54,833 nt of DNA from Ilumatobacteraceae bacterium (GTDB lineage: Bacteria; Actinomycetota; Acidimicrobiia; Acidimicrobiales; Ilumatobacteraceae), in the NCBI GenBank assembly GCA_030726975.1, contig JANRCO010000100.1:1-54833 (forward strand), written 5' to 3'. Within the stretch, counting starts at the first letter, position 1. Every line of letters begins with the position of its first letter. Shown one piece after another: positions 2,986-14,226 of the stretch. Position numbers and translations under genes: made by a program. The notes under the pieces are model-generated. The model was given only the letters and a program-made list of their open reading frames with translations, did not search any database and had not been told where the DNA came from.

Positions 2986-3807
2986 CTATTTTGAAGCAGT
3001 TGCAAATGCGCGTTGCGTCAGCACGCGTGCAAGATGTTCACGGTATTCCACAGTGGCATTGAGGTCTTCAGGTGGGTTGGTGTTGTCGTTGATGACGGCA
3101 AGAACATCGGCAATTGCCGCACCCTTACTGATTGCCTGTGATGCAGACTGAGCAAGATGAGGTTTGTTCGACATATTGACAAGCGCAACGCCCGGTTTTG
3201 CACCTAGTTGCAGCGCTACACCAACAATGGCGTAGTCCATTGCGCGGCGCACAAACTTTTCATATGCCCAACCAGCATCGGTGTGCTTAGGAAACTCAAT
3301 TGCGGTGAGAATTTCACCAGGCTGAACATCGGTTTCTAAAAAGTCAATAAAGAATTCTTGCGCTGAAACACGACGCTCGCCATTTTGACCAGCGATGACC
3401 ATAGTTGCGCCAGTAGCCAATGCCGCTGCGGGTAGATCTGCTGCTGGGTCGCCGTGCACCAATGAACCACCGAGTGTTCCGCGATTACGCACTTGCGGGT
3501 CGCCTACTTCACCAGCAACATGTGCAACGAGTGGAAGGTGCTTCTTTACTAGTTCAGACTGTTCAATATCGCGGTGGCGCGTGAGAGCACCAATGACGAT
3601 GTTGTTGCCGTCTTCTTTAATGTACGACAACTCTTTGATGTGCGTTACGTCAATCAGTGTTGCTGGAGTCACCAAACGCAACTTCATGAGTGGGATGAGT
3701 GAATGCCCTCCAGCAAGAAGCTTTGCTTCATCGCCGTGTTCTGCAAGCAAACGAATTGCATCGGCGACCGACGTCGCTTCAACGTAATCAAATTGTGCAG
3801 GTATCAC
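2986..3807 (-). CDS. coxM: CO dehydrogenase/xanthine dehydrogenase family FAD-binding medium subunit
   Basis: [14 protein letters not shown] and [25 protein letters not shown] motifs; GTG start at 3807 overlaps the coxS stop by GTGA. Confidence 0.85.
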
Positions 3808-4295
3808 TTGGCACCTCCTGATGTGAAGTTTGGGTGTTCCGCAGCCCAACGGACTGCATTAACAATCATTTCGTAGCCCGTGCAGCGGCAAAGGTTGCCT
3901 TCGAGCGCCTGGCGAATTTCTTCTTCCGATGGATTGGGGTTCTCTGACAACAAAGCAGTGGAAGCCATGATCATGCCTGGCGTGCAATAGCCACATTGCA
4001 GGCCGTGCTCTTGGCGGAATCCTTCTTGCACTGGGCTAAAGGACCCGTCAGCCTGAGCGGCACCTTCAATGGTGGTGACATTGCAGTCGTGAACTTGTGC
4101 TGCAAGGAGGGTGCACGACTTCACTGCTTCCCCGTCGAGCAAAACAGTACATGCTCCACAGTTTGAAGTATCGCAGCCAACATGTGTGCCGGTGAGGCTG
4201 AGCTCTTCACGTAGATAGTGAACGAGAAGCGTGCGAGCTTCTACTTCGCGTGAAGTTTCTTTGCCATTAACAGTGATTGAAGTACGAATTGTCAT
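3804..4295 (-). CDS. coxS: CO dehydrogenase/xanthine dehydrogenase family 2Fe-2S small subunit
   Basis: [29 protein letters not shown]; start MTIRTS at 4295. Confidence 0.9.
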
Positions 4296-6607
4296 CACTT
4301 TGCCCCTTCTAAAATGTTCCAAACTTTGATTGGTGTAACTGGCATATCGATGTGCTTCACGCCGAGGTGGCTGAGCGCATCGACAACCGCATTGACCACT
4401 GCTGGCGGTGCGCCAACTGAACCCGACTCACCGACGCCCTTAGCGCCCAGCGTGTTACTGGGGTTGGGAGTATTGGTGCGCCCGGTGACGTACCCAGGCA
4501 GGTCTGATGCTGCAGGGACGAGATAGTCCATGAGCGTTGACGTGCGTGGCACACCACTGGGGTCGTAGAGCATGTGTTCAAACAGTGCTTGTGCGATGCC
4601 TTGCGCTACGCCACCATGCACTTGGCCTTCTACCAAGAGTGGGTTAATAACTGTTCCGCAGTCGTCAACGAGGTACATATTGACAATATTGACTCCGCCA
4701 GTTTCACGATCAATTTCTACAACACAGCAATATGCGCCAGAAGGGAAACTGAAGTTCGGAACTTGCTGAAACACTGTGGAGTCGAGTCCGCCGGGTTCCA
4801 TGCCACCTGGAAGTTCCAGTGGTTGGAAACTCTTCCAAGCAACCTCACTCCACGGAACACTGCGAGCAGGCGTGCCCTTCACAAAGAATTTTTCGTCTTC
4901 AATGACGATGTCTTCAGCGCTTGCTTCCAACAAATGTGCGGCAATACGTTTTGCATTTTCATACACACGACCACTTGCCGTTTTTACGCCTTCGCCGCCA
5001 ACTGCAACCGCACGTGAACCCATGGTTCCAATACCTTGTGGAACAACTGCCGTATCGCCGTGCTTCACACTGATGCGATCGAAATCGATACCGAGTTCGT
5101 CGGCCGCAATTTGGGCATAAGTGGTAACTGTTCCTTGCCCGTGGGGCGATGCACCAGTGAAAATAATGGCGCTACCGTCGGGTTGAATGCGCACTTGGGC
5201 CGATTCCCACGACGCAAGATGGCCGAAGGCTTCAAGTGAGCCTGGAGGGCCGAACCCAGCAATTTCCAGCCACGAAGCAAAACCAATACCGAGAAGTTTT
5301 GCAGCAGGATCTTGACGACGCTTTTCTTGTTCTTTTTTCAATTCGTCGTACTTCACGTGCTTCAGCAACTCATCGAGTGCTCCTGCGAAGTTACCGCTGT
5401 CGTACATCGCAAGTGGGCTATGCGTTGCATAGGGAAATGCGTCAACTGGAATGAAGTTGCGACGACGCACTTCTACTGGGTCAACACCTGTTTCATCGGC
5501 TATGAGATCGATGAGGCGCTCGATGGTGTACGACGCTTCTGGGCGACCAGCACCACGGTATGCAGCAACTGGGGTGGTGTTGGTAACAACGTTTCGCCAC
5601 GAAATAGCAACAGCGGGGATGCGATAGCAACCAGCAGCCATTGCGGTGGTGAGAACAGGAAGACCCATGCCGGTGCCGTTGGGGTACGCACCTTGATCTT
5701 GAGTCACCGACAACTTCAAGGCCAAAATGCGCCCATCGTTGTCGAATGCAACACTTGCATCGTGCTCTTGAGCACGGCCATGCAACATTGCTACCAAACA
5801 CTCGCTACGTGTTTGCGTGTACTTCACTGGCCTGCCAATTTCTTTCGACAACAATGCCGTTAAGAAAAATTCAGGCACGAAGTTGATTTTGGCACCAAAG
5901 CCGCCACCGACATCGGGAGCAACAACGCGAGTGGAGTCTTGTGGAATACCAAAGTACTGAGCAATAGTGTTGCGCAAGTGGTGTGGTGCTTGAAACGCTG
6001 CCCACAGCGTGAGGCCACTGCGTCCCCAATCGGCAAGACACACATTGGGCTCAATGGGTGTAGGTGCACAACGGTTGTTCACAATGTGGAGTGATGCAGT
6101 GCGAGGTGCTGCTGCAAAAACATCATCGAGGGGATTCTCAAAATCTTGGAAGTGCACAGTGTTTCCACCAAGAGCTTCGTGGAGCACCACAGCACCTGGA
6201 GCCATTGCTGCACTCAAACTTGCCACAGCGGGAAGTGGTTCGTAGTCGACCACAATGAGTTCGGCTGCGTCGGCGGCGATATAACGATCGGTTGCCACAA
6301 CTACAGCAACACCTTCACCAACAAAACGAACAACATCTTTTGCGAGCAACGGTTGGTCGAGGCCTGGCAGCCCACCTGGGCAGTTTGCGAGTTGCGCGAT
6401 ATTTGCTGAGGTCCACACGGCAAGGACACCTGGCAAGACCAGTGCCTCAGCCGTATCTATTGAGCGAATTTTTGCATGGGCTTCGGTTGAGCGAACAAAC
6501 ACCATCGATGTGCAACCTGCGGGTTGCAGGTCGTCGACATATTGCCCATTTCCGGTAATGAGATTTGGATCTTCTTTACGAAGTACACGTGCTCCAACTA
6601 ACGACAT
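4295..6607 (-). CDS. coxL: Xanthine dehydrogenase family molybdopterin-binding large subunit, form II CoxL-like
   Basis: 770 aa; active-site loop AYRGAGR (form II signature rather than form I AYxCSFR); [16 protein letters not shown]. Confidence 0.88.
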
Positions 6608-12719: not shown

Positions 12720-13118
12720 ATGACAACTGTTCGTTACCTCAGCCTCGACTGGATTGAGGCAATTGGCACACGTGCCGCAGAAAATGCGGTGTTGCAAGCC
12801 CTCGGTTCGACTTTGGAAATCGGCATCACTCAAATGGTGAGCGACGGCCCCGAAGACACCGTCTTGTATCACCTTCAAGTAAAAGACAACGCCGTCACGT
12901 TTGGTGCAGGCCCTGCCGACCCAGAACACGTGCGCCTTGAACAAGAATGGGAAACTGCCGTCGCTGTAGCCACAGGCGAAATGGCTGCAGAAGATGCATT
13001 CATCACCGGAGCAATACGCATTGGTGGTGACGCACAAATGCTTCTGCAGAGCCAAGAAATTTTTGCTGCGCTCGACCCCATCTTCGATGAAGTAGCGCAC
13101 ATCACCGTTTACAAATAA
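12720..13118 (+). CDS. SCP-2 sterol-transfer-like domain protein
   Basis: 132 aa; WETAVAVATGEMAAEDAFITGAIRIGGDAQMLLQSQEIFAALDPIFDEV resembles the SCP2 domain. Confidence 0.55.
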   Translation: MTTVRYLSLDWIEAIGTRAAENAVLQALGSTLEIGITQMVSDGPEDTVLYHLQVKDNAVTFGAGPADPEHVRLEQEWETAVAVATGEMAAEDAFITGAIRIGGDAQMLLQSQEIFAALDPIFDEVAHITVYK

Positions 13119-13543
13119 TTGCCCGACTTCAACGCAAGATACGTCGCCTCGGCATTATTTTCTTCCACTTGTACAGCATCATCTGCGAGCGGATTCACCC
13201 AGACCGCCACGATGAGCGCGAGTTCATGTACGTCATTTGCACCAAAAACTCCATTGTCGCGAGCTCTTTGTACTCCACGCGCTACCCCGTGCTGAGCTGC
13301 GCCCCAGGTGAGAGCACCGTGGTGTTCCGTTTCAATAGTTGCCTTGTTCACAAAAAGCGTCATTGGCTGCAGTGGCTGATTTGGCGCAGCAACCGCTACA
13401 AAACGCGTGTGCCCAACACTTGGTGTTGCTAGACCCGTTGCCCATGCAGTTCCTACGGCCCCTTCTCTGTTGCCTAGCACAGTGTTGATGTGTGCTGCGT
13501 TCACACCCTCTCCAACGAATGATTCTCCGTATTCAGATTTCAT
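13109..13543 (-). CDS. fae: Formaldehyde-activating enzyme (Fae) homologue
   Basis: GESFVGEGVNAAHINTVLG, AVAAPNQPLQPMTLFVNKATI, GAAQHGVARGV, NNAEATYLALKSG align by eye with Fae motifs; catalytic-type His retained in AAHIN. Confidence 0.82.
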   Translation of the reverse strand: MKSEYGESFVGEGVNAAHINTVLGNREGAVGTAWATGLATPSVGHTRFVAVAAPNQPLQPMTLFVNKATIETEHHGALTWGAAQHGVARGVQRARDNGVFGANDVHELALIVAVWVNPLADDAVQVEENNAEATYLALKSGNYL

Positions 13544-14226
13544 TGGGGCAACCTTCCGTAACGCGAGAGCTTCAATTCATCAGACGAGTCGGTTCCACTC
13601 TTAGTGTCGTATGCCAACAGCGCAACGATGCGCAACGTATGGCCCTCAATTGGAGTCACCTTGTGCAAAGAGGTACGGCCGTTAAAGATCATCAAAGATC
13701 CGGCGTGCATTGGCTCGACGCGGATTCGGTCACGCGCATTGCCAGACAAGACACTTTGTACATCGTCATAGTTTTCATCGGTTGCCGTGCGAAGTTTTTG
13801 TGCATTTTCAAACTCGCCACCGGCCTGCGAAGGCTGCAATGCAAGTGACACCACAAAGTCGGTCATGTCGAAATGCCAGCCCAATTGGTCGCCCTCACGC
13901 ATGACCGCAAGGTTCAATGCACCAAATGGGTCTGCGTATCGGTAGAGCTTTTCTTGTCCAAGAACGCCAGCAACAAAAGTCATGAGCTCATCGGACTCAT
14001 AAAGTTCGCGCACCGCGTGATGTGCGGGAATGTGGTCGTAAGCAATTACTTCCACTGCAGACGACTGCATAGTTCGACGGGGATGCCCCTCAGGAAAAGA
14101 TTCATCGGGGCTGCTCAAATATGCAGTTTTCTGTGACTCCGAACGGTGTGCAAGAGCCACAAGTTCTTTGGTTTCCACAACCATTCGCTGCACAACTTCG
14201 CACGGGATGAACTCTGGCAACACCAC
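13540..14226 (-). CDS. Fe(II)/2-oxoglutarate-dependent oxygenase
   Basis: GWHFDMTDFVVSLALQ (HxD), LHKVTPIEGHTLRIVALLAYD (distal His and Arg); GTG start; ATGA overlap with the fae homologue. Confidence 0.78.
   Translation of the reverse strand: MVLPEFIPCEVVQRMVVETKELVALAHRSESQKTAYLSSPDESFPEGHPRRTMQSSAVEVIAYDHIPAHHAVRELYESDELMTFVAGVLGQEKLYRYADPFGALNLAVMREGDQLGWHFDMTDFVVSLALQPSQAGGEFENAQKLRTATDENYDDVQSVLSGNARDRIRVEPMHAGSLMIFNGRTSLHKVTPIEGHTLRIVALLAYDTKSGTDSSDELKLSRYGRLPQ

Follow-up and report, generated by a model that had tools for sequence, protein, structure and literature searches.

Canonical Fae, the formaldehyde-activating enzyme, both forms and cleaves an N-CH2OH bond at a nitrogen of a pterin, and it is used as a metagenomic marker of H4MPT-linked formaldehyde oxidation. 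The BesD/HalA/HalB/HalD family of 2OG-Fe(II) oxygenases acts on free amino acids, its solved members carrying out hydroxylation or halogenation at C-H bonds of lysine or ornithine; we know of no solved or characterised demethylase in the BesD/HalD family. Numerous Fae homologues lie outside the H4MPT pathway, and their role is a standing question, which the gene pair described here makes testable. Among these homologues, the Fae2 and Fae3 proteins of methylotrophs have been investigated, and no clear role has emerged (PMC5023235).

The window, by which we mean the whole stretch of DNA analysed, comprises 54,833 nt from an Ilumatobacteraceae bacterium (GCA_030726975.1, contig JANRCO010000100.1). 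It contains a member of the BesD/HalD family and a Fae homologue as overlapping genes:

12720..13118, plus strand: SCP2-like gene (PF02036, 2.4e-5), convergent, with a 10-base overlap with the 3' end of fae
13109..13543, minus strand: Fae homologue of a putatively H4MPT-independent subfamily, 144 aa, C-terminally short (PF08714, TIGR03126)
13540..13543, minus strand: ATGA stop/start overlap of oxygenase and fae, seen in the sequence, with predicted translational coupling
13540..14226, minus strand: 2OG-Fe(II) oxygenase, HalD/BesD family, 228 aa, GTG start, match to PF23169

Both open reading frames and their overlap had been proposed in the sequence-only reading of this DNA, and we confirmed the coordinates and the strand: TCAT at 13540-13543 of the plus strand is ATGA on the minus strand, with the fae ATG at 13543-13541 and the oxygenase TGA at 13542-13540. 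The convergent SCP2-like gene has homologues only in L029/L068 and L031, i.e. this neighbour is kept in just two near relatives, and we did not consider it a member of the module. The neighbourhood of the pair, conserved within the window's family, has sdh on one side and mdh-metF-purH-sucCD on the other; these are housekeeping surroundings, and the hint of folate C1 metabolism that they give is only loosely suggestive. A three-gene molybdenum hydroxylase of the CO/xanthine dehydrogenase type, for which aldehyde oxidation is possible, is encoded on the strand of the pair about 6.5 kb away (2986-6607).

The assignment of 13109-13543 to the Fae family, made earlier by eye, is borne out by profile searches, in which the protein exceeds the cut-offs both of PF08714 (5.5e-41, 140.7 bits, cut-off 27) and of NCBIfam TIGR03126 (124 bits, cut-off 118). 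Its closest solved relative is the Fae of M. extorquens (1y5y, 3.9e-24), onto which the AF2 model (pLDDT 92.7) is superimposed by Foldseek with a TM score of 0.95 and an rmsd of 1.0 A. The catalytic-type His of the GVNAAHIN motif (residue 18) is invariant in our alignment, being present in 81/81 oxygenase-linked sequences including that of the window, in 12/12 canonical Fae and in 5/5 Fae linked to mandelate-racemase (MR) genes, and it is replaced by E or M in Fae2 and Fae3 as sampled. The His of GAAQHGVA, a motif also named in the earlier reading, is not conserved, being A in 79% of relatives, and we dropped it as a catalytic argument. Compared with its relatives of 165-170 aa, the protein lacks about 22 aa at the C terminus; the same shortening is common to the window's eight closest relatives, so we regard it as genuine and not as an assembly slip.

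We use the term window-type Fae for the subfamily of the window's homologue, which includes the oxygenase-linked members and other Actinomycetota Fae. Its members differ from canonical Fae at positions that are invariant in the latter (D24N, L25T, F38W, Q79H, M83T, F84W, W122P and Y135R), and the canonical HPF at the C terminus has become N-P-Y/F. The numbering follows the M. extorquens sequence, of which residues 5-142 come from a database alignment and the ends are provisional; the canonical genomes in our alignment agree with it. The altered positions make even the binding of formaldehyde uncertain; judging from the alignment, the chemistry may have been kept while the pterin site changed. 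In a tree of 75 sequences, with canonical Fae represented by bacterial sequences, a 100/95 branch sets the window-type and other Actinomycetota Fae apart from Fae2/Fae3 and from the bacterial canonical Fae, and the window protein and its closest relatives occupy a long branch. By profile, modelled fold and active-site His the window protein is a member of the Fae family, and it appears to fail as a member of the H4MPT-dependent Fae.

The sequence-only reading had remarked that no H4MPT enzymes are visible in the window, and the remark holds at the scale of genomes. Our set comprised 39 genomes of the class Acidimicrobiia, namely 38 with Fae and G202, a congener of the window's genome; 29 of them are at least 90% complete, and the window's own genome is 79% complete. 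Profile searches found Mch (PF02289) in none of the 39 and Ftr over its cut-off in none of the 39. Mch was likewise missing from 12 further genomes with window-type Fae only (0/12, and 0/50 over all genomes with this Fae only). As a positive control, 11 alphaproteobacterial genomes that carry canonical Fae were searched, and Mch was present in 9 of them (p 3e-9 against the 0/12). The search for MtdB (PF09176) gave no match in the genomes and none in the controls either. The earlier suggestion that the protein uses an unusual carrier or has a different role gains support from the lack of Mch in every tested genome that has window-type Fae only; no gene for a novel carrier came to light. One Rhodospirillales genome, HOG25, has two types of Fae, canonical and window-type, yet no Mch was found in it (L160/L191, L148/L192). 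A mycothiol-dependent formaldehyde dehydrogenase exceeds the cut-off in 19 of the 39 class genomes, and the other 20, the window's among them, would need some other route for formaldehyde. By this test about half of the 39 organisms appear to have neither of the usual formaldehyde routes.

It could be argued that the Fae homologue is not an enzyme at all and that it acts as a formaldehyde-binding sensor or buffer, co-expressed with an oxygenase that produces formaldehyde. No downstream C1 pathway was found adjoining Fae, the fold and the His would permit reversible binding of formaldehyde, and in methylotrophs the single deletions of fae2 and fae3 had no phenotype and no catalytic role is known for these proteins (PMC5023235). 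However, Fae2 and Fae3 as sampled have lost the His that the oxygenase-linked Fae have kept, and we regard the sensor or buffer as improbable.

The oxygenase matches the HalD profile PF23169 with 53.8 bits (cut-off 26) and stays under the cut-off of the generic 2OG-FeII_Oxy_3 model. H118, D120, H188 and R199 are invariant across 20 relatives in the alignment; the first three are the predicted Fe ligands and R199 the predicted 2OG-binding Arg. D120 is aligned to G of the halogenase HalB and to D of the lysine hydroxylase, so the protein should be a hydroxylase and not a halogenase. We accordingly rejected a halogenase of the BesD type, in which HxG or HxA leaves a site for halide on the Fe. The AF2 model (pLDDT 95.8) has BesD, HalA, HalB, HalD and the lysine hydroxylase 'Hydrox' (7jsd) as its best Foldseek matches, and from sequence and model together we assign the protein to the BesD/HalA/HalB/HalD amino-acid oxygenase family.

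The two genes travel together far beyond the neighbourhood of the window. The earlier reading had named a failure to match Fae and a lack of conservation of the pair in relatives as grounds for refuting it, and it survives on both counts. In a survey of 296 genomes of the class Acidimicrobiia, Fae exceeds the cut-off in 38 and the oxygenase gives a strong match in 36, of which 34 also have Fae. The association is highly significant by Fisher tests that ignore the shape of the tree (p 9e-38 by genome and 1e-20 by genus, with strong and weak matches separated by a 220-bit line set post hoc after the scores were seen), and it persists without that line, when all 48 oxygenase matches are used (p 6e-29 by genome, 9e-15 by genus). 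Oxygenase matches that cover nearly the full model score at least 302 bits in one group and at most 210 in the other, and the few between are partial. Three genomes, G202, G295 and G067, lack both genes, and congeners in each of the three genera have both. The distance matrices of the two proteins are correlated (Mantel r 0.57, 0/2000 permutations as high).

At the level of loci, the oxygenase lies directly upstream of Fae on the same strand at 23 of the 39 Fae genes of the class, 13 of these with the 4-base overlap, and one further Fae has a divergent oxygenase neighbour. Of the 80 named oxygenase loci that we took from GTDB species, 68 continue directly into Fae, and in one more Fae belongs to the same operon but lies 3.9 kb downstream; the remaining 11 lack Fae, one of them being cut by a contig end. 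The 4-base overlap recurs in 41 of the 80, in keeping with the translational coupling deemed probable in the sequence-only reading, which is itself predicted. MAG records titled 'Bifidobacterium breve' (L103, L104, L116, L143, L152, L167) also carry an acidimicrobial-type pair, whose oxygenase is up to 89% identical to that of the window, and their taxon label therefore looks wrong.

Chance synteny in a streamlined genome has in its favour that, in the window's family, the genes sit within the conserved sdh-mdh-metF-purH-sucCD neighbourhood. It is refuted by the recurrence of the pair in different gene surroundings and outside the phylum, and by its co-occurrence when unlinked, and we give it practically no weight. 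Nine genomes of the class have both genes at separate places, about 276 kb apart in the single-contig genome G003. This retention of both genes when unlinked is the strongest sign of shared function and makes a functional link near certain; the linkage shows that the oxygenase and Fae act in one pathway.

Outside Acidimicrobiia the genes associated with the pair, or with Fae in the absence of the oxygenase, point to the nature of that pathway. In the Rhodospirillales HOG25 the operon order is SBP5, oxygenase, permease, permease, ATPase, Fae, and this genome has the SBP5-oxygenase-permease-ATPase set in two copies. In S. clavuligerus Fae has a 4-base overlap with the substrate-binding protein of an OsmF-type glycine-betaine ABC importer, a reductase and then an SSADH-like dehydrogenase coming after it, and on megaplasmids of Burkholderia and Caballeronia Fae is accompanied by an aldo/keto reductase (AKR), SSADH and an MFS transporter. 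Elsewhere an aspartase-like lyase comes directly after the oxygenase:

L241 7976-12775; L245 11980-16454; L246 11980-16438; L247 9980-14454: S. clavuligerus betaine-ABC/Fae/SSADH and Burkholderia/Caballeronia Fae-AKR-SSADH-MFS loci
L127 4735-6811; L129 5659-7915; L131 639-2735; L137 5821-7930: oxygenase, then aspartase/fumarase-like lyase, in Binatia and one deltaproteobacterial genome

The loci of the second line belong to a group of six genomes, reached through the named loci, that have the oxygenase and in which no Fae was found; in four of the six the aspartase-like lyase comes next. Two related genomes (L121, L124) lack this lyase and have Fae elsewhere in the genome. Further searches for the oxygenase, across the order to which HOG25 belongs and across the phylum of a Binatia genome, recovered only the known genomes, so the alternation of aspartase and Fae rests on six genomes. 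Two more loci, from Rhodospirillales or other Alphaproteobacteria, have a DDAH-like hydrolase nearby. In six other Actinomycetota Fae either adjoins a gene of the mandelate-racemase/enolase superfamily (5/6), several having Zn-ADH and SBP5-type ABC genes as well, or clusters with SSADH, GABA aminotransferase and an agmatinase. ABC importers of the betaine or peptide type thus recur beside this Fae, and the common thread of these contexts is that small compounds resembling amino acids or betaines are taken up and broken down.

The adjacency of Fae and the mandelate-racemase/enolase-superfamily gene (L230, L232, L233, L234, L235) constitutes a second recurrent Fae pair. About 70 Pantoea plasmids carry a 38% identical oxygenase, sometimes named ArpA; in Pantoea vagans pVag1 (L244 7908-8681) this ArpA-type oxygenase occurs without Fae, and its neighbours are a DUF2817 gene and a gene for an amino-acid binding protein. 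An LLM (F420-type) oxidoreductase was considered as a general Mer-like partner and rejected: its orthologues stand divergently beside Fae only in families f27 and f43, and the LLM genes of L140, L127 and L052 are not orthologous.

We propose that the pair is a two-gene catabolic module for oxidative demethylation, in which an H4MPT-independent Fae handles the C1 unit, a reading that we consider to have about an even chance of being correct. The substrate, taken up by an importer or of internal origin, would be a small N-methylated, amino-acid- or betaine-like compound. The oxygenase, with Fe(II), 2OG and O2, would hydroxylate the methyl group to yield an N-hydroxymethyl (carbinolamine) product, and the co-translated Fae homologue would condense the released formaldehyde with an acceptor other than H4MPT, tetrahydrofolate being the obvious candidate, or else would act directly on the carbinolamine. 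A small amino-acid-like substrate is supported by the oxygenase family and the gene context. The methyl group and formaldehyde as the chemistry we infer from the identity of Fae; the N-methyl nature of the substrate, the release of formaldehyde and the acceptor are likewise putative, demethylation with formaldehyde capture being suggested by the partner and the context. It is quite a long shot that the substrates include compounds resembling N-methylaspartate or N-methyl-GABA, a guess prompted by the aspartase-like and SSADH/GABA genes that replace or accompany Fae in other lineages. Against the demethylation module, window-type Fae occurs elsewhere without the oxygenase and with enolase-superfamily, aldehyde dehydrogenase or reductase partners, which do not obviously fit the release of formaldehyde from N-methyl groups, and the six genomes with the oxygenase in which no Fae was found count against it as well.

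These partners lead to a different scenario, in which the oxygenase is an ordinary C-hydroxylase of free amino acids and the Fae homologue acts, as a lyase or condensing enzyme, on some other small aldehyde of that catabolic route, with no formaldehyde involved. It would agree with the BesD/HalD family of the oxygenase, with the aldehyde dehydrogenases, aldehyde reductases and enolase-superfamily enzymes that accompany Fae elsewhere, and with the replacement of Fae by the aspartase-like lyase in four non-actinobacterial genomes. However, the window Fae is still above the equivalog cut-off of TIGR03126, its His is invariant and its fold unchanged, and formaldehyde is, to our knowledge, the only substrate aldehyde of the Fae family. 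We consider this scenario unlikely, if worth serious attention.

Within the demethylation module, a special form of the reaction deserves separate mention. The oxygenase could stop at a fairly stable N-CH2OH compound, which the Fae homologue would cleave to the amine and formaldehyde as a carbinolamine lyase. Such a lyase would explain the persistence of Fae without H4MPT, the retained His and the tight coupling of the genes, and, as canonical Fae already handles N-CH2OH, the model changes only the amine partner. Some 2OG-dependent N-methyl hydroxylases do yield a slowly fragmenting hemiaminal: human FTO acting on m6A releases N6-hydroxymethyladenosine, whose breakdown is slow and non-enzymatic, which provides a precedent on the oxygenase side for direct action on a carbinolamine (PMC12392094). 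On the other hand, general chemistry has carbinolamines of aliphatic amines decaying fast unaided, so the lyase needs an amide-, guanidine- or aryl-type nitrogen, and we rate this form of the reaction as rather unlikely. Taken more broadly, that an H4MPT-independent branch of Fae serves oxidative demethylation, either by charging another C1 carrier such as folate or as a carbinolamine lyase that completes the oxygenase reaction, seems to us somewhat short of an even chance.

The component families are already known. A literature search of incomplete coverage returned no description of the oxygenase-Fae pair, of Fae from Acidimicrobiia beyond environmental surveys, or of an H4MPT-less branch of Fae with a fixed oxygenase partner. 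The use of fae as a marker is affected directly, as every tested genome with window-type Fae only lacks Mch and such fae matches need another reading; actinobacterial fae matches should not be counted as H4MPT-linked formaldehyde oxidation. In a study of Lac Pavin, Actinobacteria are named first among the lineages that dominate the potential for formaldehyde oxidation at the lake interface, as discussed via fae (PMC9875498), and the window's closest named relatives include genomes from Lac Pavin (L101). Should N-methylated osmolytes or amino acids be demethylated by the pair, freshwater Acidimicrobiia would have a route of methyl-carbon turnover that has gone unrecognised. If the H4MPT-independent demethylation reading is true, the Fae fold would have a new catalytic role, and the two enzymes together would be a new demethylase.

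Among known systems, M. extorquens Fae (1y5y/1y60; TIGR03126) is the nearest to the window's homologue, with which it shares the fold, a score above the equivalog cut-off, the catalytic-type His and the motifs GE..VG.G...AH and P.TL..NK; it differs from the window-type proteins in the separate branch of the latter, their altered invariant positions, the lack of Mch and Ftr in their genomes and their oxygenase partner. Fae2 and Fae3 resemble the window-type Fae in being distant Fae homologues of unsettled function, and differ in the loss of the His and in their position on another branch. BesD, HalA, HalB, HalD and 'Hydrox' (7jsd) are the best matches of the oxygenase in both sequence and fold and share its predicted Fe- and 2OG-binding residues, whereas the window oxygenase has HxD in place of HxG, as expected of a hydroxylase, and the identity in structural alignment is 15-18%; we know of no Fae partner in the BesD/HalD family. 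The routes that demethylate N-methylglutamate and N-methyl-GABA and pass the C1 unit to folate are comparable to the proposed reaction in converting an N-methyl amino acid to an amino acid and a C1 unit, but they use flavin dehydrogenases or oxidases and not a 2OG oxygenase with Fae. Finally, the lyase form of the module has an analogy in PHM/PAL, in which a hydroxylase is followed by an enzyme that acts on the carbinolamide; there PAL completes the reaction of PHM, although those proteins are unrelated to the window pair and their product is glyoxylate and not formaldehyde.
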